From: Solidesulfovibrio magneticus RS-1
GTDB lineage: Bacteria; Desulfobacterota; Desulfovibrionia; Desulfovibrionales; Desulfovibrionaceae
Assembly (NCBI RefSeq): GCF_000010665.1
Contig: NC_012796.1
Span: 2,013,501-2,077,500, forward strand
Direction: 5' to 3'
Length of the DNA stretch: 64,000 bases
Both the position numbers and the translations under genes were made by a program. Each line of letters starts with the position of its first letter. The stretch's first letter is position 1. Below the pieces are notes generated by a model. The model saw nothing but the letters and a program-made list of their open reading frames with translations, searched no databases and was not told the DNA's origin. Below are positions 723-14,856 of the stretch, in pieces.

Positions 723-3494
723 CTAACCGACCGCGGTGATGCGCCGCACCACCCAGGTTTTGACGATCTGGGCCAGGCACATGTAGGCGAAGATGACCAG
801 GGCGATAAACCCCCAATAATGGGCCGGCGGCACGACCAGGCCGAAGGAGGCGGCCAGGGGCGAGAAGGGCAGCCACACCCCCAAGGCGCAGATGGCCAGC
901 GTCGTAAGCCCCAGCGGCAAGCTGGAGCGGCTTTGCAGGAAGGGAATGCGGTCCGTGCGGATGACGTGGACAATGAGCGTCTGGGACAGCAGCGATTCGA
1001 TGAACCAGCCGGTCTGGAACAGCGCGGCGTTGTCCCAGGCATGGAAAACATGCAGTAAAATGAAGAACGTGACGTAGTCAAAGATGGAACTTACCGGGCC
1101 AAGCCAGACGATGTAGCGCCGGATGTCGTCGATGCGCCAGCGCCGGGGGGCCTTGACGATGTCGTCGTCCACGTTGTCCGTGGGAATGGCCGTCTGGGAG
1201 AAGTCGTACATGAGGTTGTTGACCAGGATCTGGATGGGCAGCATGGGCAGGAAGGGCAAAAAGGCGCTGGCCCCGAGCACGCTGAACATGTTGCCGAAGT
1301 TGGAACTGGCCCCCATGCGGATGTATTTGGTGATGTTGAAGAAAATCTTGCGGCCTTCGACCACGCCGTGCTCCAGCACGTGCAGGCTTTTTTCCAGCAA
1401 AATGATGTCGGCCGACTCCTTGGCCACGTCCACGGCCGAATCCACCGAGATGCCGACGTTGGCGGCCCGCAGGGCCGGGGCGTCGTTGATGCCGTCGCCC
1501 ATGAACCCGACCACATGGCCCCGGGCGCGAAGCGCGGCCACGATGGCTTCCTTTTGCATGGGATCGAGCTTGGCGAACACGTGGCAGCTCTCCACGGCCT
1601 CGGACAGCTCGGCCGGACGCATGGCCGCCACCATGTCGCCGGTGATGATGTGGTCCCCGGCGTCAAAACGCACTTCGCGGCAGATCTTGGCCGTGATGAC
1701 GGCATTGTCGCCGGTAACGATCTTGGGCTGGATGCCATGGGCCAGCATGGTGGCCAGGGCGTCGGCGGCGGTGTCCTTGGGTGGATCGAGGAAGGCCAGA
1801 TAGCCCATGAGGGTCAAGTCGGACTCGTCGGCCACGGCGAAGTCGTGGCGCGAACCGTCGACTTCCTTATAAGCCAGGGCCACCACCCGGAAACCGTCGT
1901 CGTTGAGTTCGTGGACCAACTCCTGCATGGTTTCGCGGTGGTCGGCGTCCAGGAGCGAGGTCACGCCGTCGTGGAGGCAGTCATGGCTTTTGGAGAAGAC
2001 TTCCTCGGCCGCGCCCTTGCAGATAAGCACCGCCTTGCCGGTCTGCTTGTCGCGCACGATGACGCTTAACCGGCGGCGCATGAAGTCGAAGGGGATCTCG
2101 TCAAGCAGCTCGTAACGGTTGGGATCGATGGCCGAGGCGGCGTCGTCGCCCGAGGTGATGACGGCCAGGTCCAGGGCGTTTCGCAGGCCCGTTTGCAGCT
2201 TGCTGTTGACGTAGGCGTATTCCAGCACCGAGCAATCCTCGCGGCCGGTGACGTCGAGGTATTTTTCCAGGATGATCCTGTCCTGGGTCAGCGTGCCGGT
2301 CTTGTCCGTGCACAGCACGTCGATGGCCCCGAAATTCTGGATGGCGTCCAGGCGCTTGACGATGACCTTGTGCTTGGACATGGCCAGCGCCCCCTTGGAC
2401 AGGCACACCGTCACCACCATGGGCAGCATTTCCGGGGTCAGGCCCACGGCCACGGCCAGGGCGAACATGAACGCGCCCATCCAGTCGCCGCTGGTTGCGC
2501 CGTTGATGAGAAAGACAAAGGGCACCATGACCAGCATGAAGCGCAGCATGAGCATGGTGAAATTTTTAATACCCTTGTCGAAATCCGTCTCCACCCGCTT
2601 TTCCGAAAGCTTGGCCGCGATGCCGCCGAAATAGGTGCGCGCTCCGGTGGCCACTACCAGGGCGGCGGCCGAGCCCGAGACCACGTTGGCTCCCATGAAG
2701 CACATGGCCGGATCGTTCAGTCCCGTCTCCCCCTCGGGGGCGGCCTCGCCGAAGGGGCGGGCGGTTTTCTCCACGGGCAAGGCCTCGCCGGTCAGCATGG
2801 CCTGGTTGACGTGGAGATCCTTGGCCCGCACGAGCTGGACGTCGGCCGGGACCATGTCGCCGGCGGAGAGCAGCACCATGTCGCCCGGGACCACCTGGGC
2901 CATGGGAATTTCCGTCTGCTGCCCGTCGCGCAGGACCGTGGCCGTGGTGTGGACCATCTTGCGCAGTTCCTCGGCGGCGGTGTCGGCCTTGGCCTCCTGG
3001 ATGACCTTGAGGGTCACGCCCAGGACGGCCATACCGATGATGACCACGGCCGAGCGGACGTCGTTGGTGGCGTAGGAGATGGAGCCGAGCACAAACAGCA
3101 GGAGCACCAGCGGGTTTTTGACCGCGTCAAACAGGCGGCTTAGCAGGGTGATCCGCTTGGCGGCGGCGGCCTGGTTGGGGCCGTACTTGGCCAGACGCTC
3201 CCGGGCTTCGGCGGCGGAAAGCCCCATGGCGGCGGGCTTGGCGACCGGGACGGGTTCGGTGAGGCGCTCGCCGGCCTCGGCCACGTCCCGCCACAAGGCG
3301 TTCAGGTGCTGGAAGGCCTCGTAGGGTTCGACTTTTTGTTTGGCGGCCAGGGCCGCGAAGACATTGGCTTTCTGTACGAAGTGTTCCAGGGTTTTGACAA
3401 AGGCCGCTTCCGGGGCCAGGCGCAGGCCTTCGGGGCCGAGGGCGGCCGGGTGGGGGGGAGCCTGGGGTGTCGCTTGCTGCGGGGGTTGCGTCAT
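723..3494 (-). CDS. mgtA: Magnesium-translocating P-type ATPase (MgtA/MgtB type)
   Basis: This 923-residue protein has the full P-type ATPase layout: an N-terminal cation-ATPase domain, the actuator loop with LTGEALPVEK near residue 240, the phosphorylation motif DKTGTLT near residue 395, the hinge motif GDGINDAPAL near residue 660 and a C-terminal block of membrane helices. Length and layout fit the type IIIB enzymes that import magnesium across the inner membrane at the cost of ATP. The chosen ATG (3492-3494) has an AGGAGG ribosome site seven bases upstream; an in-frame start 17 codons earlier has no such support. It stands alone between hairpins. I looked for an M-box-like leader upstream and could not identify one. 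Confidence 0.92.
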   Translation of the reverse strand: MTQPPQQATPQAPPHPAALGPEGLRLAPEAAFVKTLEHFVQKANVFAALAAKQKVEPYEAFQHLNALWRDVAEAGERLTEPVPVAKPAAMGLSAAEARERLAKYGPNQAAAAKRITLLSRLFDAVKNPLVLLLFVLGSISYATNDVRSAVVIIGMAVLGVTLKVIQEAKADTAAEELRKMVHTTATVLRDGQQTEIPMAQVVPGDMVLLSAGDMVPADVQLVRAKDLHVNQAMLTGEALPVEKTARPFGEAAPEGETGLNDPAMCFMGANVVSGSAAALVVATGARTYFGGIAAKLSEKRVETDFDKGIKNFTMLMLRFMLVMVPFVFLINGATSGDWMGAFMFALAVAVGLTPEMLPMVVTVCLSKGALAMSKHKVIVKRLDAIQNFGAIDVLCTDKTGTLTQDRIILEKYLDVTGREDCSVLEYAYVNSKLQTGLRNALDLAVITSGDDAASAIDPNRYELLDEIPFDFMRRRLSVIVRDKQTGKAVLICKGAAEEVFSKSHDCLHDGVTSLLDADHRETMQELVHELNDDGFRVVALAYKEVDGSRHDFAVADESDLTLMGYLAFLDPPKDTAADALATMLAHGIQPKIVTGDNAVITAKICREVRFDAGDHIITGDMVAAMRPAELSEAVESCHVFAKLDPMQKEAIVAALRARGHVVGFMGDGINDAPALRAANVGISVDSAVDVAKESADIILLEKSLHVLEHGVVEGRKIFFNITKYIRMGASSNFGNMFSVLGASAFLPFLPMLPIQILVNNLMYDFSQTAIPTDNVDDDIVKAPRRWRIDDIRRYIVWLGPVSSIFDYVTFFILLHVFHAWDNAALFQTGWFIESLLSQTLIVHVIRTDRIPFLQSRSSLPLGLTTLAICALGVWLPFSPLAASFGLVVPPAHYWGFIALVIFAYMCLAQIVKTWVVRRITAVG

Positions 3495-3708
3495 GACGCC
3501 TCCTTCGATTCGATGCGCGGGGGAGGCCGGTCCAAGCACCGGCAAGGACTCCCCCGATGCCGCATCAGGCCCTACAAGCCGGGGATGGCTTTCTCATGAC
3601 TGAAGCAAGACGGACAATCACCTTACTAAATTGGCATTTTGCCGGCTGTGCGCCGGTTTGGCGTCCTGTGTCCGCCTACTCTTGGGCCACAACCTTGGGC
3701 CATGGCCG

Positions 3709-4791
3709 TTACCGGCGCACCGCAGCCAGAAAATCCAGGCTGGCCTGGGCCGCCTGGTGGAAGTCCACGCCGCCGTCGATTTCCAGCACCGGCAGGTCGC
3801 CCAACAGTTCCAGATAGGCCTTCTGGCTAGCCATGGACGGCTCGGAGGGGTCCTCGAATTCGTAGAAAAGCCCCACGTCCTTCATGAAGGCCGGCATGAG
3901 GTCGCGCCGGTCGGCCAGGCGCACCCGGGCGGCGGTCATGGGCGAGGCGTCGCGCTTCCAACGCAGGATGACCAGCCCGGCCATGGGGCAGGCCAGCTTG
4001 AACCGGCCCGGGCCGAAGCACTCGTCGATAAAGGCGTCGTACTTGTGCTCCAGGTCCCACAGCTCGGCGGCGGGCAGGGCCGAGAACCGGGCCCGGTCGA
4101 CGGCGTCCATGACCGGAGCCAGGCTGGGGTTGTTGAGCACCGTGCCGGGGTTGACCCGGGGCATCTTGGCCACGCCGTGCATGACCAGGCCGTCGCCCTC
4201 GCGGGAAACCATGACCCGGTCGTTGCTGATGAACTCCGTGCCGCAGCGCATGATCTCCAGGGCCAGGGTCGATTTGCCGGCCCCGGAAAAACCGGCGATG
4301 ACCAGGCCTTGGCCGCCTTGGGCGACGCCGGCGGCGTGGAACAGCAGCGCCCCGCGCTTTAAGCGCCATTCGATGAAGCGGTTGTTGATGAAGTTGACGA
4401 TCTGGTTGTCGTTGTCCAGGCACGGCCCCACGGCGTAGTTCTTGCCCTGGCCGAAGAGAAAGACGAGGCCGGTGAGGAGCTTTTTGACCACCCGGCCGTC
4501 GGCAAGGTCGATGGAGGCTTCCTTGAGCTTGGTCTTGCCCGGTTCTCGGGGGTGGACGGCAAAGGGGAGATCGAAGTCCGGCGGCCCGGCCTCGATGGCC
4601 GTGACCTCGATGACGGTCGTGCCGCCGCTGCCGAGGAAATCGCGGAAGTAGCGGCCGAGCTTTTCCGACAGGGCCTGGGAGTTGGTGGCCACGGCCACGG
4701 TCACGTCGTCAAAGGTGACTTCCAGACGGTGGGCCAGGGGCGCGGTTTCCAGGACGGGGGCCATAAGCCCGGCGATGGTCGGGGCGCTCAT
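3709..4791 (-). CDS. HprK-related kinase B (GAK system)
   Basis: The 360-residue product has a Walker A loop GFSGAGKST near residue 165, set in the fold context typical of HPr kinase/phosphorylase relatives. The N-terminal 150 residues lack an HprK N-terminal domain and have no motif I know. In protein family collections this arrangement beside an ATP-grasp enzyme and an amphi-Trp protein is named the GAK system, of unknown biochemical role; the protein is probably a P-loop kinase acting on a protein or small molecule in the cytoplasm. The start ATG overlaps the stop of the ATP-grasp gene by four bases, so the two are translationally coupled. It is the last gene of the four-gene minus-strand operon. 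Confidence 0.8.
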   Translation of the reverse strand: MSAPTIAGLMAPVLETAPLAHRLEVTFDDVTVAVATNSQALSEKLGRYFRDFLGSGGTTVIEVTAIEAGPPDFDLPFAVHPREPGKTKLKEASIDLADGRVVKKLLTGLVFLFGQGKNYAVGPCLDNDNQIVNFINNRFIEWRLKRGALLFHAAGVAQGGQGLVIAGFSGAGKSTLALEIMRCGTEFISNDRVMVSREGDGLVMHGVAKMPRVNPGTVLNNPSLAPVMDAVDRARFSALPAAELWDLEHKYDAFIDECFGPGRFKLACPMAGLVILRWKRDASPMTAARVRLADRRDLMPAFMKDVGLFYEFEDPSEPSMASQKAYLELLGDLPVLEIDGGVDFHQAAQASLDFLAAVRR

Positions 4792-5672
4792 GCGATCTCC
4801 CCCAGGACATAGTCGGCGTAGGTGCCGGCCGCGTCCAGGCCGCAAGCGTCGAGGAGTCCCCGGAAGCCGCCGAAGGCCGAGACTTCGTAGATGGCCGCGC
4901 CGGATGGGGTTTCCACCACATCCACGCAGGTGAAGGCCATACCCGGGAACAGGTTCTGGGCCTTGCGGGCCAGTTCGATGATCTCGTCCGACGGGTTGTG
5001 GGGCACGTAGCGGCCGCCGGTGCGGGTGGTGGTGTCCCAGGAGTTGCCGCTGCCCTGGCGGGCGTAGGTGGCCAGATATTGGCCGCCCAAAAACGACACG
5101 CCGAGATCGAGATGCCCGCCGGCGTGGGAGACCATCTGCTGGATGTACATGACCCGGTTGCCGGCGGCCTGGTAGTCGGCGATCTCCTCGTGCATGTCCG
5201 GGCCTTCCTCGATGACGGTCATGCCCCGGGCCTTGGAGCTGTACAGCGGCTTGAACACGGCCCGGCCGTAGTCCGAGACGGCGGCGGCGGCTTCGCTGAC
5301 GTCCTCGGTGACGGTGGTCGGCGGCATGGGGATGCCGCCCCGGCGCAGCACGGCCGTGCCGCTTAGGCGGTCAATGAGCCGAAACATGCTGTCCGGGTTG
5401 GAAAACACCGGCAGCCCGCCGGAATGGAGAAAACGCAGGATCTCCATGCGGTCCAGGGCGTCGGGGGTATAGGACGGGGCGATTTTCTTGACGATGATAC
5501 CGTCAAGTTCCGTCAGGTCGTTGTCCTTGTAAAAGGCCTTGCCCGTTTCCAGATCCAGGCGCACCTCGGCCATGTCGATGCACAGGCGATAGCCGGTGCG
5601 GGCTTCCAGGGCGTCCAGCAAACGCAGGGTGGACCAGCCGCCGGGGATGCCCACCACGCCAATCTTTTTCAT
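4788..5672 (-). CDS. ATP-grasp enzyme (GAK system)
   Basis: The 294-residue protein resembles RimK-type ATP-grasp ligases: an N-terminal pre-ATP-grasp part beginning MKKIGVVGIPGGW, a lysine in the central domain within AVFKPLYSSKARGM, and an acidic metal-binding end with DVVETPSGAAIYEVSAFGG. Such enzymes join a carboxylate to an amine through an acyl-phosphate. The substrate is unknown. The start chosen (5670-5672) has GGAG six bases upstream. The gene lies 29 bases downstream of the PhoU-phosphotransferase gene and overlaps the kinase gene after it by four bases. The constant pairing of ligase and kinase suggests a two-step modification, but that is inference. Confidence 0.82.
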   Translation of the reverse strand: MKKIGVVGIPGGWSTLRLLDALEARTGYRLCIDMAEVRLDLETGKAFYKDNDLTELDGIIVKKIAPSYTPDALDRMEILRFLHSGGLPVFSNPDSMFRLIDRLSGTAVLRRGGIPMPPTTVTEDVSEAAAAVSDYGRAVFKPLYSSKARGMTVIEEGPDMHEEIADYQAAGNRVMYIQQMVSHAGGHLDLGVSFLGGQYLATYARQGSGNSWDTTTRTGGRYVPHNPSDEIIELARKAQNLFPGMAFTCVDVVETPSGAAIYEVSAFGGFRGLLDACGLDAAGTYADYVLGEIA

Positions 5673-5701
5673 GTTTTTCTCCATGGTTGCAGGCAGGTTG
5701 T

Positions 5702-7333
5702 CTAGTAGCACAAAGCGTCGATGGGCAGCTTGAAGTCGGCCGGGTCGCCGGCATGGGCGGCCACGTGCTGCAGCAAAAAGACGCCTCGGTTAAACATGAG
5801 CCGGGCGAAACGTTCGCTCAGTTCGAATCGGGTCGAGGTCATAAGCGACCGGCCAAGGCCCAGGGCCAGCCGGATGTCGAAGGTCGTATCCCCATGCTTG
5901 GCGGCAAAAGCGGCGGCGAAGCGGCGCATCTCCAGGATGACGGCGGAAAGGACGCTTCGCCGGGCCTTGTCGAAGATGGGCAGGCGGAAGTTGGAGACCA
6001 TGTAGACCGAGACGTCCTGCACCAGGTCGGCGTCGGCCGAGCGGTGCAGGTCGATGTAGTGGATGCGGTTCTCGGCCGGATCGTAGAGGATGTTGTTGGT
6101 GTTGTAGTCGCCGTGGATCAGCACGGTGTAGGGCGCGGCAAGGGTGCGCTCCACGGCCTCGGCGGCGTCGACAATTTCGTCCAGGGACGGCAGGGGATAG
6201 GAGCCGATGGCCTTGGGCTTGACCCGAAAGCCCGGGTGCACGGCGAGCACCTCGGGCAGGCGGGCGCGCAGTTGCTTGCTGTAGCCGGTGGGCTGGGGGC
6301 CGGGGGTCAGGGTCTTTTCCCAGAGTTCCCCGGCGGCGGCGCACTGGGCGGCCACGGCCCGGGAGAGCAGCTTGAGGTCGCCGGAAAGGGACAGGTCCTG
6401 GATGGTCTGGCCGGGCAAGAGCTCAATGAGCATGGAACTGGTCTTTTCCCCTTCGCGAAAGGCCTCCAGGTGCGGGGCCAGACCCGGCATCAGGGACTCC
6501 CAGCGGGCGAAGTTGGCGGCTTCCTGGCGCAGCTTGCCGGTGTCGCCGTCCTTGAAGATGACTTCCTTGTGGCAGTCGCCTTCGCCGCCGCGTTCCTGAA
6601 TCCGGCCGATGCGGCAGCCCGAGCGGGTGCCCCAGATGGAGGCGAATTCCACGTCGGACAGCGGGTTTTCGTGGCCGGCGGCGGTCAGGATGTCGTTTAA
6701 GGCGGTGAACTGGCGGATTTTGAATTTGTCGCCGGTGATGGCGAAGATGGCTGCCTCGCCGATGTTGAGCAGGGCGTCGCCCATGCGTTCGAGGTAGCGG
6801 AAGATAAACAGGGTGGTGAGCAGATCGCCGGTGTTGAAGCCCGTGCGCAGTTCGTCGCGGATGCGGTCGAACTCCTGCTTGTAGAGCCGGTCGAGATGCA
6901 GCTCGCAACGGCAGATTTTGAGCGCCGCGGACATGTCGCGCTCCAGCACCGCCTTGGGCATCCAGCCCAGGGCATTTTGGATTTCCTGGAAAAACGGCTT
7001 GTAGGCGTAGCGCAGCAAGCACCCCGGGTCGTCGTAGTGGCGCGTTTGGCGTACCACGTTGACGGCATGGTCGCCCACCCGTTCGAGGTTGCTGCCGATG
7101 ATGTGAAATGCCCGGATGCGGGCCACTTCCGGGGCGGTGGGCCGGGTTTCGCCGTGCAGGGTGGCGAAACAGGCGTTTTCGATGACGCTTTTCAAGTTGT
7201 CGATATAGTCGTCGCGGGCCTCGATCTTGGCGATGGCCTTTTCGTCACGGTGCTTGAGGACTTCGATGGTCCCGGCGATCTGTCGCTCGATCTCCACGAG
7301 CAGGAATTTGAAATTGCGCTCGATCTCAAGCAT
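5702..7333 (-). CDS. PhoU-like domain fused to an aminoglycoside-phosphotransferase-like kinase
   Basis: This 543-residue protein has two parts. Residues 1 to about 215 are helical and PhoU-like, with the repeated pattern IIGSNLERVGDHAVNVV and a later RYLERMGDALLNIGE, the metal-binding helix motif of PhoU. From about 240 to the end is an APH/choline-kinase fold, with the catalytic loop HGDYNTNNILYD near residue 404 and a following IDLHRS that supplies the metal-binding Asp. PhoU proteins sense or regulate phosphate transport; APH-fold enzymes phosphorylate small molecules or proteins. The start overlaps the amphi-Trp gene by eight bases. A Pit-type phosphate permease is encoded 0.7 kb away, which fits a phosphate-linked role. 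Confidence 0.8.
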   Translation of the reverse strand: MLEIERNFKFLLVEIERQIAGTIEVLKHRDEKAIAKIEARDDYIDNLKSVIENACFATLHGETRPTAPEVARIRAFHIIGSNLERVGDHAVNVVRQTRHYDDPGCLLRYAYKPFFQEIQNALGWMPKAVLERDMSAALKICRCELHLDRLYKQEFDRIRDELRTGFNTGDLLTTLFIFRYLERMGDALLNIGEAAIFAITGDKFKIRQFTALNDILTAAGHENPLSDVEFASIWGTRSGCRIGRIQERGGEGDCHKEVIFKDGDTGKLRQEAANFARWESLMPGLAPHLEAFREGEKTSSMLIELLPGQTIQDLSLSGDLKLLSRAVAAQCAAAGELWEKTLTPGPQPTGYSKQLRARLPEVLAVHPGFRVKPKAIGSYPLPSLDEIVDAAEAVERTLAAPYTVLIHGDYNTNNILYDPAENRIHYIDLHRSADADLVQDVSVYMVSNFRLPIFDKARRSVLSAVILEMRRFAAAFAAKHGDTTFDIRLALGLGRSLMTSTRFELSERFARLMFNRGVFLLQHVAAHAGDPADFKLPIDALCY

Positions 7334-7601
7334 CGTCTTCGTCCCGGGCGGTGATTAAAAGCGGCGCGGAACATTCCTGTTCGCGCTCCTTCCAGCGGAA
7401 GGTCAACTTGAGTTTGCGGTCCTCGCCCTTGGCCTTGCCTTCCACGGTGACGGCCACCAGCCCCTTGGGGATAAGGCGCAGCACGTCCTCGCCCTGGGAC
7501 AGGGTGATCTCGCCGGAGGCGAAACCGTCGCGCACGGCCTCCAGATAGGCGGCGATGACGTCGGGCTGCTGCAATCCGTCGTATTTGAAAAGCTTGTTCA
7601 C
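7326..7601 (-). CDS. Amphi-Trp domain protein, first gene of the GAK operon
   Basis: The 91-residue protein starts at a GTG (7599-7601) with AAGGAGG seven bases upstream; the ATG-started frame further out has no ribosome site. Its C-terminal half alternates hydrophobic and charged residues and ends in LKLTFRWKERE, the strand-Trp pattern of amphi-Trp domain proteins, which are small and of unknown function. It is the first gene of the operon amphi-Trp, PhoU-APH, ATP-grasp, HprK-related kinase and overlaps the next gene by eight bases. A small protein in this position could be the substrate of the ligase or kinase; that is a guess. Confidence 0.72.
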   Translation of the reverse strand: MNKLFKYDGLQQPDVIAAYLEAVRDGFASGEITLSQGEDVLRLIPKGLVAVTVEGKAKGEDRKLKLTFRWKEREQECSAPLLITARDEDDA

Positions 7602-7857
7602 GCACTTCCTCCTTGGCGGCCCGGGGAGACGATCCGGGCGCGTCCCTGGCTGTAGCACCCGATTATGAAGAAAAGGTGAAGCCCGGCTTGTTTTTTTGCA
7701 CAGCGGCCGGGTTTTCCCACGCCGCGCGTTCGTCATGGGAGACTCACGCAACCTTCATCGGTTTGGCCTGTACGCGGCCGGCCCGATTGGGCTAGTGTCG
7801 CGTCCGCGACAAGCGCCTCTGGCGTTTCCCGGGCAACGATGAAAACCACCATTTTTT

Positions 7858-7885
7858 CTTAAAAAATACGCCCGTATTTTTTAAG
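7858..7885. promoter_or_regulatory. Perfect 13-bp inverted repeat in the divergent spacer
   Basis: Half-site CTTAAAAAATACG, a two-base CC centre, then its exact complement. It is AT-rich in a GC-rich genome and lies 35 bases before the Nif11-like gene, in the spacer shared with the GAK operon (7602-7919). It could be an operator for a dimeric repressor or the promoter region itself. I see nothing else certain in the 318-bp spacer. Confidence 0.55.
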
Positions 7886-7919
7886 GGAAGCGACAAAAGG
7901 GGCAGGCACGGAGGAGGCC

Positions 7920-8102
7920 ATGAGTCAGGAAGCCATCGATCAATTTCTGGCCTGGTTGCAGGCCGACAAGGACCGGCTGCTGCTGGTCGGCGGCCTGCCG
8001 CTCTCCGAGTTGGTGGCCCACGCCGCCGCCCACGGGTTTATTTTCACCGTGGAGGAACTCAAGGCCAGGCAGGCCCTGGTGCATCTGTTGGAAGGCACCT
8101 AG
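7920..8102 (+). CDS. Nif11-like small protein
   Basis: The 60-residue product begins MSQEAIDQFLAWLQADKDRL and later has an Ala/His helix, a Gly-Phe turn (HGFIFTVEEL) and an acidic helix. This matches the Nif11 pattern: F-L..(hundreds of homologues begin with an F-L-K-V-type helix), a middle helix, then GF.(F/I)T.EEL. Nif11 proteins occur in nitrogen-fixation regions and as leaders of ribosomally made peptides; there is no precursor core or modification enzyme here, so a leader role is unlikely. The ATG has GGAGG five bases upstream. The gene sits between the divergent GAK operon and the phosphate permease. Confidence 0.6.
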   Translation: MSQEAIDQFLAWLQADKDRLLLVGGLPLSELVAHAAAHGFIFTVEELKARQALVHLLEGT

Positions 8103-8271
8103 CGTCGCGCCCCCCTCTCCGAAATAAATATGTTGGTATTTTGGGGGAGTGCAATGGTTTTTCGCTTGTTGCCGGCAAAACGCTCGCTGCTTTTTTCAAG
8201 GATACGCCACGCGGAGGGGCGGTTTGGTCGCCGCTCGCGCCCGCTTTCCCCCACCCGCACCGGAGTACGGC

Positions 8272-9723
8272 ATGTTGCAGTCCCTTGCCAGCCTTGACGG
8301 CCATACCCTGATCCTGTTGTGCCTGTCCCTGGGCATCGCCCTGGCCTTTGAATTCGTCAACGGCTTTCACGACACGGCCAACGCCGTGGCCACGGTGATC
8401 TACACCAAGGCGCTACGGGCCACCACGGCCGTCGTCCTGTCGGGCATCTGCAATTTTCTCGGTGTGCTGCTTGGCGGCATCGCCGTGGCCTATTCCATCG
8501 TCCATCTGCTGCCGGTGGACCTGCTCGTGTCGGTCAACTCCAACCTTGGGTTGGCCATGGTCTTTTCCCTGCTCGTCTCGGCCATCCTGTGGAACTTCGG
8601 CACCTGGTACCTGGGGCTGCCGGCGTCGAGCTCGCACACGCTCATCGGCGCGATCCTGGGCGTGGGCTTGGCCAACGCCGTGCGCGAAGGGCTGCCGGCC
8701 GGGGCCGGGGTCAACTGGCACAAGGCCATCGAAGTTGGCTTGTCGCTTTTTATCTCGCCCATCATCGGCTTTGTCCTGGCCGGTGGGCTGCTGCTTTTGC
8801 TGCAACGACTCCTCAAAAATCCGGCCCTGCACCGGCCGCCCCAGGGCGACGCGCCGCCGCCGCCGGCCATGCGGGCGGCGCTGATCCTCTCGGGCTTGGG
8901 CGTGAGCCTGGCCCATGGCTCCAACGACGGCCAGAAGGGGGTGGGCCTTATCATGCTCATCCTCATCGGCATCCTGCCCGGGGTCTATTCCCTGGACGCC
9001 GACCTGTCGCCCGGGGAGACGGCCATGGTGCGCCAGGCGGCGGCCCGGTTCACCGATTATTTCGACGCCCACCGGCTGGAGATCGACAAGGCCTACGCCA
9101 GCGGCGCGATCCGGGAGCTGCCCGAAAAAGCCTCGGCCGTGAACTGCGACGTGCGCGGGGCCGTGGCCGCCTCGGAAGATATCCAGCGCCAGCTAGCCCT
9201 GTATGATTCCATTGCCGCCATCCCGGCCGGGGAACGCTGGGAGCTGCGCACCGACATCCTGTGTCTGGACGACGCCGCCCGGATCATGCAGGGGCTTTCG
9301 GGCAGCGCCGCCGAGCGGGCCGAGATCGAGCAACTGCGCGAAACCTTGCGCCGGCCAACGGAATACGCCCCAAGCTGGGTCATCATGGCCGTGTCCCTGG
9401 CCCTTGGCGTGGGCACCATGGTCGGCTGGAAGCGCATTGTGGTCACCATCGGCGAGAAGATCGGCAAGACCAAGCTCAGCTACGCCCAGGGCGCTTCTGC
9501 CCAGATCGTGGCCATGGCCACCATCGGCCTGGCCGACGGCCTGGGGCTGCCGGTGTCCACCACCCACGTGCTGTCTTCCGGCGTGGCCGGGACCATGGCC
9601 GCCCACAAAAGCGGCCTGCAGATGCGCACCCTGCGCTCCATCGCCATGGCCTGGGTGTTCACCCTGCCGGCGGCCATGCTGCTGGGGGCCGGGTTCTTTT
9701 TCCTCTTCACGGCCTGGCTGTAG
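8272..9723 (+). CDS. pit: Inorganic phosphate transporter, Pit family
   Basis: The 483-residue membrane protein has both halves of the PiT signature: FVNGFHDTANAVATVI near residue 25 with SSSHTLIGAILG, and AHGSNDGQKGVGL in the middle with a matching C-terminal repeat (LPVSTTHVLSSGVAGTMAA). A soluble loop of about 140 residues separates the halves, as in E. coli PitA-type carriers. It would import phosphate, usually as a metal-phosphate complex with protons or sodium. ATG 8272 has CGGAG nine bases upstream; an upstream in-frame ATG at 8149 lacks support and its extension is not membrane-like. The PhoU-containing GAK operon is next door; Pit genes are often paired with PhoU-like partners. Confidence 0.9.
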   Translation: MLQSLASLDGHTLILLCLSLGIALAFEFVNGFHDTANAVATVIYTKALRATTAVVLSGICNFLGVLLGGIAVAYSIVHLLPVDLLVSVNSNLGLAMVFSLLVSAILWNFGTWYLGLPASSSHTLIGAILGVGLANAVREGLPAGAGVNWHKAIEVGLSLFISPIIGFVLAGGLLLLLQRLLKNPALHRPPQGDAPPPPAMRAALILSGLGVSLAHGSNDGQKGVGLIMLILIGILPGVYSLDADLSPGETAMVRQAAARFTDYFDAHRLEIDKAYASGAIRELPEKASAVNCDVRGAVAASEDIQRQLALYDSIAAIPAGERWELRTDILCLDDAARIMQGLSGSAAERAEIEQLRETLRRPTEYAPSWVIMAVSLALGVGTMVGWKRIVVTIGEKIGKTKLSYAQGASAQIVAMATIGLADGLGLPVSTTHVLSSGVAGTMAAHKSGLQMRTLRSIAMAWVFTLPAAMLLGAGFFFLFTAWL

Positions 9724-13794: not shown

Positions 13795-14856
13795 TTATTT
13801 TTCCTTCATAAATATCTCACGCGCGGCCACGGCGGTGTCGGGGAAATCGGCAAACACGCCGTCAACGCCGAGTTCGTAGAACTGGAGATATTCCTTGATG
13901 GGGTCGTTGCCGTAGTCCTTGGCCAGGTAGCGGTCTTCGTTGCGGAAAGTGTAGGGATGCACGGTGAGCCCGGCGGCGTGGGCGTCGGCCACCACGGTAT
14001 TGGGCGCAGCCAGGGTCTTGTCCGGGTTTTCCTTGATAATAAGCCGCTTCCAGGGACCGATGCCGTTGGCGAAGGCGGCGATCTCCTGGAGATTGGCCGG
14101 TGAGAGCAGTTCGGCGAAGGTGCGTTTGTCGCCGGAGACCACGAAATCATAGGGACGCATGTCGGGCTCGTCGTAGAGAAAGACCAGCTTGACCGGCGTC
14201 ATTTGGCGCAAGTCCTTGAGGTTGCCGATCTCGAAGGACTGGATGAAGACCGGGGACTCGGCCTTGTCGTAGCCGTTTTTGGCGAGAATCTCCACGAGCT
14301 TGCCTTCCAGGGGCAGACCGATGCTTCGGAAATAGGTCGGATGCTTGGTTTCGGGATAGATGCCGATGACGCGGCCGGTTTCCTTTTCTTTGCGTTTGAC
14401 CAGTTCGATGACCTCTTCGAAAGTCGACACGGCGAACTGGCCGTCGCGGCTGTGGTCGCGGAAGTCGAGACGTTCCTTGGCCCGTAGGGTCCTCAGTTCG
14501 GCCAGGGTGAAGTCTTCGGTGAAATAGCCATCGATCTCGGTTCCATCGATGGTTTTCTTGGTTTTGCGGTCCGGGAACTTGGCGGCCACGTCGGTGGTGC
14601 CGCTGATGTCGTTTTCGTGGCGGGCGATGAGCACGCCGTCTTTGGTGGCGACGAGGTCCGGCTCGACGTAATCGGCCCCCATGTCGATAGCCAATTCGTA
14701 GGAGGCCAGGGTGTGTTCGGGGCGATGGCCGCAGGCGCCCCGGTGGCCGATGACCAGGGGGGCGGGGCGGGACTGGGCCAGGGCCTCGCCGGCCAGACCG
14801 CTGGCGGCGGCCAGGGCCAGGGCCAGGGCGGCGAGTCGAAGGGTCGTTTTACGCAT
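13795..14856 (-). CDS. glpQ: Periplasmic glycerophosphodiester phosphodiesterase
   Basis: The 353-residue protein starts with a clear Sec signal peptide (about 27 residues, ending AGEALAQ). After it comes the GDPD signature: VIGHRGACGHRPEHTLASYE, with catalytic His and the EHT motif, then GADYVEPDLVATKDG with metal-binding residues. GlpQ enzymes release glycerol-3-phosphate from glycerophosphodiesters in the periplasm, using calcium. Length and order match E. coli GlpQ. The start ATG has GAGGAG upstream. No glycerol-3-phosphate transporter gene is next to it. Confidence 0.9.
   Translation of the reverse strand: MRKTTLRLAALALALAAASGLAGEALAQSRPAPLVIGHRGACGHRPEHTLASYELAIDMGADYVEPDLVATKDGVLIARHENDISGTTDVAAKFPDRKTKKTIDGTEIDGYFTEDFTLAELRTLRAKERLDFRDHSRDGQFAVSTFEEVIELVKRKEKETGRVIGIYPETKHPTYFRSIGLPLEGKLVEILAKNGYDKAESPVFIQSFEIGNLKDLRQMTPVKLVFLYDEPDMRPYDFVVSGDKRTFAELLSPANLQEIAAFANGIGPWKRLIIKENPDKTLAAPNTVVADAHAAGLTVHPYTFRNEDRYLAKDYGNDPIKEYLQFYELGVDGVFADFPDTAVAAREIFMKEK

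Follow-up and report, generated by a model that had tools for sequence, protein, structure and literature searches.

The window analysed here is a stretch of 64,000 nucleotides from Solidesulfovibrio magneticus RS-1 (NC_012796.1, positions 2,013,501 to 2,077,500), and it carries on the minus strand, at 3709-7601, an operon with intact reading frames for a small amphi-Trp protein, a protein that joins a PhoU-like domain to an APH-type kinase (PhoU-APH), an ATP-grasp ligase and an HprK-related kinase B (HprK_B), in this order (Table 1). The genes are tightly packed, with overlaps of 8 bp between amphi-Trp and PhoU-APH and of 4 bp between the ligase and HprK_B, and a gap of 29 bp at the remaining junction. 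A Nif11-like gene and a gene for a Pit phosphate permease lie divergently on the plus strand. An earlier sequence-only reading of the window had assigned the operon to the GAK system, and searches with the NCBIfam profiles of that system bear this out, as HprK_B, the ATP-grasp ligase and the amphi-Trp protein all score above the cut-offs of their TIGR models; the extent given at that time, 5702-9723, was incomplete, because the HprK and ATP-grasp genes (3709-5672) fall outside it. Our literature search on the GAK system and its component families found no paper characterising the system.

Table 1. Genes and features of the GAK operon and its divergent neighbours, in window coordinates
Feature	Position	Strand	Details
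HprK-related kinase B (TIGR04355)	3709..4791	-	360 aa; 545 bits, cut-off 200
GAK ATP-grasp ligase (TIGR04356)	4788..5672	-	294 aa; 423 bits, cut-off 300
PhoU-APH	5702..7333	-	543 aa; PhoU part about 4-205, APH-type kinase about 235-540
Amphi-Trp protein (TIGR04354)	7326..7601	-	91 aa, GTG start assumed; 60 bits, cut-off 31
AT-rich palindrome, 28 bp	7858..7885	no strand	divergent intergenic region; genome-wide family
Nif11-like protein, small	7920..8102	+	60 aa; borderline profile matches
Pit/PHO4 phosphate permease	8272..9723	+	483 aa; PF01384, 303 bits

The fusion proposed in the sequence-only reading was confirmed as well, since the N-terminal part of PhoU-APH contains two PhoU stretches (PF01895, E 7e-23) that align with PhoU proteins of the PDB, and the C-terminal part matches the APH kinase family (PF01636, E 4e-9, 36.9 bits against a cut-off of 23.2). 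Because the protein stays below the full-length PhoU equivalog TIGR02135 (81 bits versus 130), we describe it as carrying a PhoU-like domain and not as a PhoU ortholog, and because it is far under the cut-offs of the aminoglycoside phosphotransferase equivalogs (best 27.8 bits, cut-off 205), there is no sign that it is a resistance enzyme. The catalytic motif of APH-type kinases is made of H-G-D, N and D, and in PhoU-APH residues K261, H407-G-D409, N414 and D428 are kept in at least 93% of 33 homologues; the P-loop, H and D-R residues of HprK_B are kept in at least 93% of 32 homologues, and the core residues of the ATP-grasp ligase are also conserved among homologues. Due to this conservation of residues, whose roles we take from their respective families, the APH half, HprK_B and the ligase are all probably active. 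The best PDB matches of HprK_B (phmmer) are HPr kinases, over about 53 residues of the nucleotide site (E 0.002), so that the protein keeps the nucleotide-binding core of the Bacillus HprK but aligns with it over only about 50 residues; neither HPr nor Crh turned up, without a dedicated search, and amphi-Trp proteins are the neighbours instead. For the ligase, the best PDB matches are RimK/LysX-type ligases, and the best profile match after its own family is the tetrahydromethanopterin glutamate ligase MptN (E 9e-35); it shares the ATP-grasp family with RimK, LysX and MptN but is far below the cut-offs of those models. An AlphaFold model of PhoU-APH (window protein and four homologues, 82-96% identical) reached a mean pLDDT of 38 and a pTM of 0.31, and was left unused.

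How constant these genes are was surveyed in a sample of 395 genomes of the phylum, in which the reading frames of each neighbourhood were called by a custom script rather than a gene finder, so that some starts are too long. The GAK ATP-grasp ligase exceeds its cut-off in 24 genomes, and PhoU-APH (E up to 1e-30) is found in 29, that is, in all 24 of these and in five members of one further family (f82), although a contig end truncates the gene in G193 and stop codons interrupt it in G046. HprK_B is present in 24 genomes, 23 of them among those with the ligase (G118 lacks it, and G078 has it together with a fragmentary ATP-grasp gene), and the CofD-like protein in 33, including 20 of the ligase genomes. 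PhoU-APH directly adjoins the ligase gene in 20 of the 24, and is found at another locus in three, all of one genus, and on another contig in one. The usual order, conserved with variations in distant genera, is XXXCH, X388, amphi-Trp, PhoU-APH, ATP-grasp, HprK_B, CofD, and then a second amphi-Trp and/or XXXCH gene, where X388 denotes a protein of about 390 residues from an unnamed family, seen in the fetched neighbourhoods of 21/24 ligase genomes and 4/5 genomes of f82; contigs end nearby in the three ligase genomes in which it was missing (G042, G193 and G295). On this comparative evidence, PhoU-APH and X388 are core members of GAK, the former because it occurs in every ligase genome and is mostly adjacent to the ligase, yet neither matches a GAK-named model. 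In all five f82 genomes the amphi-Trp gene lies directly upstream of PhoU-APH, and the ligase, HprK_B and CofD are absent. Because the pair persists there, amphi-Trp and PhoU-APH, usually with X388, look like a minimal module, and the same arrangement points to PhoU-APH, and not to the ligase, as the partner of the amphi-Trp protein. The comparison thus shows a core made of X388, amphi-Trp and PhoU-APH, a putative sensor-kinase module, and of ATP-grasp, HprK_B and the CofD-like protein, a putative ligase-kinase-nucleotide module. Our analysis therefore adds two constant members to GAK.

The window operon itself has no CofD-like, XXXCH or X388 gene; a CofD-like gene (TIGR04357, at C2:2285449) and XXXCH genes (TIGR04358, at C2:15153 and C2:3750523), which we take to belong to the GAK system, lie outside the window in the same genome, whose GAK-type genes are spread over at least three loci. 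At one (L002), pstB, phoU, a second HprK_B gene and the GAK CofD-like gene stand in a row, and another (L009) comprises XXXCH, X388, amphi-Trp and a further PhoU-APH, which shares 47% identity with the one in the window; two further amphi-Trp genes and one further XXXCH gene are isolated elsewhere. For X388, neither Pfam nor NCBIfam gave a match, and its best PDB match is at chance level (E 0.43). Its invariant pattern (HxH, an H 32 residues on, HP and GDDxH) seemed to us presumably PHP-like, but a PHP phosphoesterase was rejected, given that PF02811 had no match at the X388 places of five genomes (E up to 10), hhalign gave a probability below 1% and the PDB profile search offered no support, which leaves the likeness as a lead only. 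The GAK CofD-like protein matches Pfam CofD (PF01933, E 1e-34), and the nearest structures to the copy of G321 in the PDB are UPF0052 entries only (E 0.01), with no CofD entry among them; we equate UPF0052 with YvcK, so that the Bacillus YvcK/GlmR proteins would be the closest known relatives of structure. YvcK is reported to bind UDP-sugars (PMC5482804).

A link between GAK and phosphate emerges from the neighbourhoods of other genomes. A true phoU gene is found within 10 kb of GAK or CofD genes in 5 of 31 genomes (G000, G089, G130, G161 and G333), which belong to five families, against 0.38 expected under uniform placement (P 3e-5); the excess persists without the discovery genome (4/30, expected 0.36, P 4e-4) and on addition of the 11 genomes of genus g3, which are outside the 31 (P 8e-4). 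In G333, pstS, pstC and pstA precede X388, amphi-Trp, PhoU-APH, ATP-grasp, HprK_B and CofD on one strand, with 274 bp between pstA and X388; in G161, pstSCAB-phoU lies ahead of CofD in the same orientation; in G089, a pstSCAB-phoU set converges on the operon with a PhoH2-like gene in between; and the contig that bears the G130 operon also carries the end of pstB, phoU and a gene for a PhoR-like kinase, all converging on the operon. GAK shares PhoU repeats with the known PhoU and PstSCAB-PhoB control and, in other genera, pst/phoU neighbours and PhoB-type boxes, but differs from it by joining the PhoU-like part to an APH-type kinase in one protein, whose gene is accompanied by those of a ligase and another kinase. 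The available part of a phosphate-limitation fitness study in D. alaskensis reports an effect of phoU and mentions neither ATP-grasp nor HPr (PMC5193443).

Pit behaves differently from phoU. At E 1e-10 it was found in 27 of 42 searched genomes, including 14 of the 24 GAK genomes and none of the five of f82. Beyond the genus of the window, none of the 30 genomes sampled has Pit at 10 kb or less from GAK genes. As a general GAK partner it was consequently rejected (1/31 genomes, P 0.18, not above chance), and the genomic comparison indicates that Pit is a genus-specific neighbour and not core. The co-occurrence proposed as a check in the sequence-only reading hence holds for PhoU-APH, present in 24/24 ligase genomes, and fails for Pit, which 10 of these lack. 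In g3 the CofD-like protein is the sole GAK enzyme, and in 10 of the 11 genomes CofD is followed by genes for a pseudouridine synthase, a weakly TIGR00153-like protein (28 bits in the scanned example, cut-off 104) and Pit; as this is one genus, it counts as one case.

The second line of evidence for phosphate comes from upstream regions. In D. vulgaris, the reported PhoB box is made of 6-bp repeats, (c/t)GT(n)AC, separated by 4 bp, and the PhoB targets named in that report include pst, phoU and pta-ack (PMC3333781). We scored YGTNAC-N5-YGTNAC, with an 11-bp period and a maximum of 10, using a threshold of 9. As a positive control, 16 of 23 pst gene starts (hand-picked, from 17 genomes) were preceded by a site scoring at least 9, and 12 of the 23 by a perfect site at the 11-bp period, compared to none at a 10-bp period. 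Outside the genus of the window, a box was present before 10 of 22 ATP-grasp loci (7/14 genera, with the perfect score in three), compared to 13 of 529 other genes of the same loci, an enrichment with P 9e-10 by locus and 9e-8 by genus when the best locus of each was taken; the 13 background genes may include real Pho genes. Across all 69 GAK-type loci, 10 reach the threshold (P 7e-5) and three score 10 of 10, versus 4/529 other genes (P 0.04). The count of 69 omits four contig-edge loci (two in G193, and one each in G078 and G295), and that of 22 further omits the genus of the window as well as G252 and G208, whose ATP-grasp matches stay under the cut-off and whose box scores are 6 each; L014-L017, which encode the same proteins as G401, G400, G395 and G403, were omitted from box and motif counts. 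A wrongly called ATP-grasp start is possible in G213 and could conceal a box that its two sister genomes show.

The operon of the window has a form that is found in its genus. All 14 genomes of the genus carry at least two PhoU-APH copies, and the arrangement of operon, Nif11-like gene and Pit is found in 13 of them, twice in G396; G398 has the operon without Nif11 and Pit, and in G404 a contig end cuts the arrangement before ATP-grasp. In a midpoint-rooted tree of 49 rows, the window-type PhoU-APH copies form one clade (19 rows, support 100/100) on a long stem of 0.97 changes per column, and the second copy of the genus groups with genus g4 (98/92); it is because of this long stem and separate grouping that the window set is probably a diverged duplicate, or paralogue. 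Of the two genes placed across the divergent promoter in the sequence-only reading, the permease is secure from its PHO4 match, in spite of scoring below the PitA model NF033774 (517 bits versus 800), and the Nif11-like protein is borderline, at 23.9 bits for PF07862 (cut-off 23.8) and 21.4 against 32.3 for the NCBIfam leader model TIGR03798. The 60-aa gene is nonetheless kept beside Pit in 13 of the 14 genus genomes, including that of the window. Both are neighbours of the operon that are specific to the genus, for Nif11 without a search beside the GAK operons of other genera.

Taken together, the sequence comparisons suggest that the window operon is a genus branch of GAK, and that GAK is most likely a Pho-regulon circuit for protein modification or signalling under phosphate starvation, a proposal that we hold with evenly balanced confidence. 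Comparative genomics shows the phosphate link itself, with PhoB-type boxes in about half of the genera and pst or phoU neighbours in five families. That link is backed more by the relatives than by the window operon, which has no PhoB-type box (best score 8 of 10), so that what connects this operon to the Pho system is the family to which it belongs, its PhoU domain and the adjacent Pit gene; the phosphate association proposed in the sequence-only reading therefore stands through other genera and is weaker at the locus for which it was made, where Pit is a local feature. If the proposal is correct, it would provide a specific condition, phosphate limitation, under which GAK should be on, making its function directly testable, and the union of a PhoU domain and a kinase in one protein would give cells a novel means of reading phosphate status.

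We acknowledge that several observations weigh against this proposal. PhoU homology is no proof of phosphate sensing. Both the threshold of 9 and the 5-bp spacer were set after an exploratory scan of GAK upstream regions, and the spacer differs from the printed 4 bp, although the pst controls favour 5 bp. When the least favourable single locus per genus is taken, the enrichment drops to P 0.006; seven of the 14 other genera have no box scoring at least 9; and 4/69 GAK upstream regions also reach 9 on the opposite strand, so that orientation is not clean. None of 15 window-type loci of the genus reaches 9, the remaining two GAK-type loci of this genome, each with a score of 7, likewise have no box, and the region upstream of this genome's own pstB scores only 8, which means that the motif may differ in this genome. 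Lastly, a motif of the S-x-Q-D type (S, hydrophobic, Q/E, D), present in 25 of 26 operon amphi-Trp copies outside the window type and f82, is absent from the window protein, as from all 15 window-type and all five f82 copies.

With regard to mechanism, the PhoU half, probably docked on a phosphate transporter, would read phosphate status and gate the APH kinase, which might act on, or through, the small amphi-Trp protein encoded upstream. HprK_B and the RimK-type ligase could modify amphi-Trp or XXXCH with a second phosphate and an amino acid, and the CofD-like protein, being YvcK/GlmR-like, may serve as a nucleotide-sugar-binding partner. In the genus of the window, the duplicated set of amphi-Trp, PhoU-APH, ligase and HprK_B would have been paired with Pit and the Nif11-like protein. 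Such a fully specified scheme, in which PhoU-gated and HprK-type kinases and a RimK-type ligase phosphorylate and aminoacylate amphi-Trp and XXXCH in response to phosphate and the product controls Pit in the genus, would make GAK a post-translational modification system of a new, phosphate-sensing kind, but is unlikely. It is also unlikely, in our opinion, that GAK makes a small phosphorylated metabolite or an F420-like cofactor tail with the small proteins as carriers. In F420, CofD forms a phosphodiester and a RimK-type ligase adds glutamate, and kinases would supply phosphorylated precursors. The conserved enzyme set, the match of the CofD-like protein to PF01933 and that of the ligase to MptN as its best characterised family, albeit below cut-off, would fit such a pathway; the F420-like version is nevertheless weakened by the UPF0052 (YvcK-type) structural matches, and no other partner accompanies PhoU-APH as constantly as the small proteins, which are retained in f82 even though ligase and CofD are missing.

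A simpler alternative would be that, in the genus, the operon regulates the neighbouring Pit, and that PhoU-APH is a Pit accessory like the PhoU-like neighbours of other Pits. The permease gene does adjoin the operon in all but one of the 14 genus genomes, and the weak TIGR00153-like gene just before Pit in g3 recalls such an arrangement, but this reading is quite unlikely considering that Pit is missing from the 10-kb surroundings of GAK genes in the 30 genomes sampled elsewhere and from 10 of the 24 GAK genomes altogether. The association with phosphate might instead be indirect, reflecting a general nutrient or energy response brought under PhoB control in some genera, as the boxless half of the other genera would allow; Pta and AckA genes lie between HprK_B and CofD in g4 (L151-L153), and three f82 genomes (L166-L168) have AckA next to PhoU-APH. 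The PhoU domain built into a core protein in 24/24 genomes and the pst genes directly ahead of the operon in G333 make this distinctly improbable. Some ATP-grasp enzymes mature ribosomally synthesised and post-translationally modified peptides, and in view of its similarity to Nif11-type leaders the Nif11-like protein could be such a precursor and the GAK ligase its maturase. We consider this highly improbable, as the protein is under the NCBIfam leader cut-off and the match spans residues 1-52 of 60, which leaves no room for a core peptide. The proposal of a Pho-regulon modification or signalling circuit is therefore the one that we retain.

The palindrome in the divergent intergenic region was considered as an operator of the operon and rejected. 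Its family has 84 sites in the genome within 3 mismatches of AAAAATACGNNCGTATTTTT, including window 7862-7881, compared to 3 for a control pattern, and of the 13 genus genomes inspected at this position (the G407 stretch was left out) no more than 3 have a similar palindrome, therefore it is not tied to the operon. Many of the listed sites have GNNA-type loops, and the family may be one of terminators or of operators. The cluster is flanked by a gene for a magnesium-translocating P-type ATPase (window 723-3545; 1101 bits, cut-off 611) and, on the other side, by one for a glycerophosphodiester phosphodiesterase (window 13795-14856; 225 bits, cut-off 254).

A few minor features of GAK loci are also worth recording. 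PhoH2-like genes lie near four of them (L159 4230-5555, L154 12530-13918, and also in G172 and G295), and the two members of this cluster that were scanned are both under the PhoH2 cut-off. A second neighbourhood of amphi-Trp and a kinase in this genome (L011 6601-9906; C2:2710600-2713905) has an unlinked amphi-Trp gene near genes for a single-domain APH kinase and a HAD hydrolase on the other strand. A second class of amphi-Trp proteins is encoded downstream of CofD (e.g. L136 5721-6089 and L139 12512-12958), many of which have in their tail a short hydrophobic-x-I-S motif and, after it, a long and often charged extension. One scanned XXXCH copy has a weak amphi-Trp match at its N-terminus, and the XXXCH proteins (L009 10515-11144 and relatives) have a helical end weakly like cytochrome b562 or c', with a C-terminal Cys-His that resembles a haem motif minus its first Cys.

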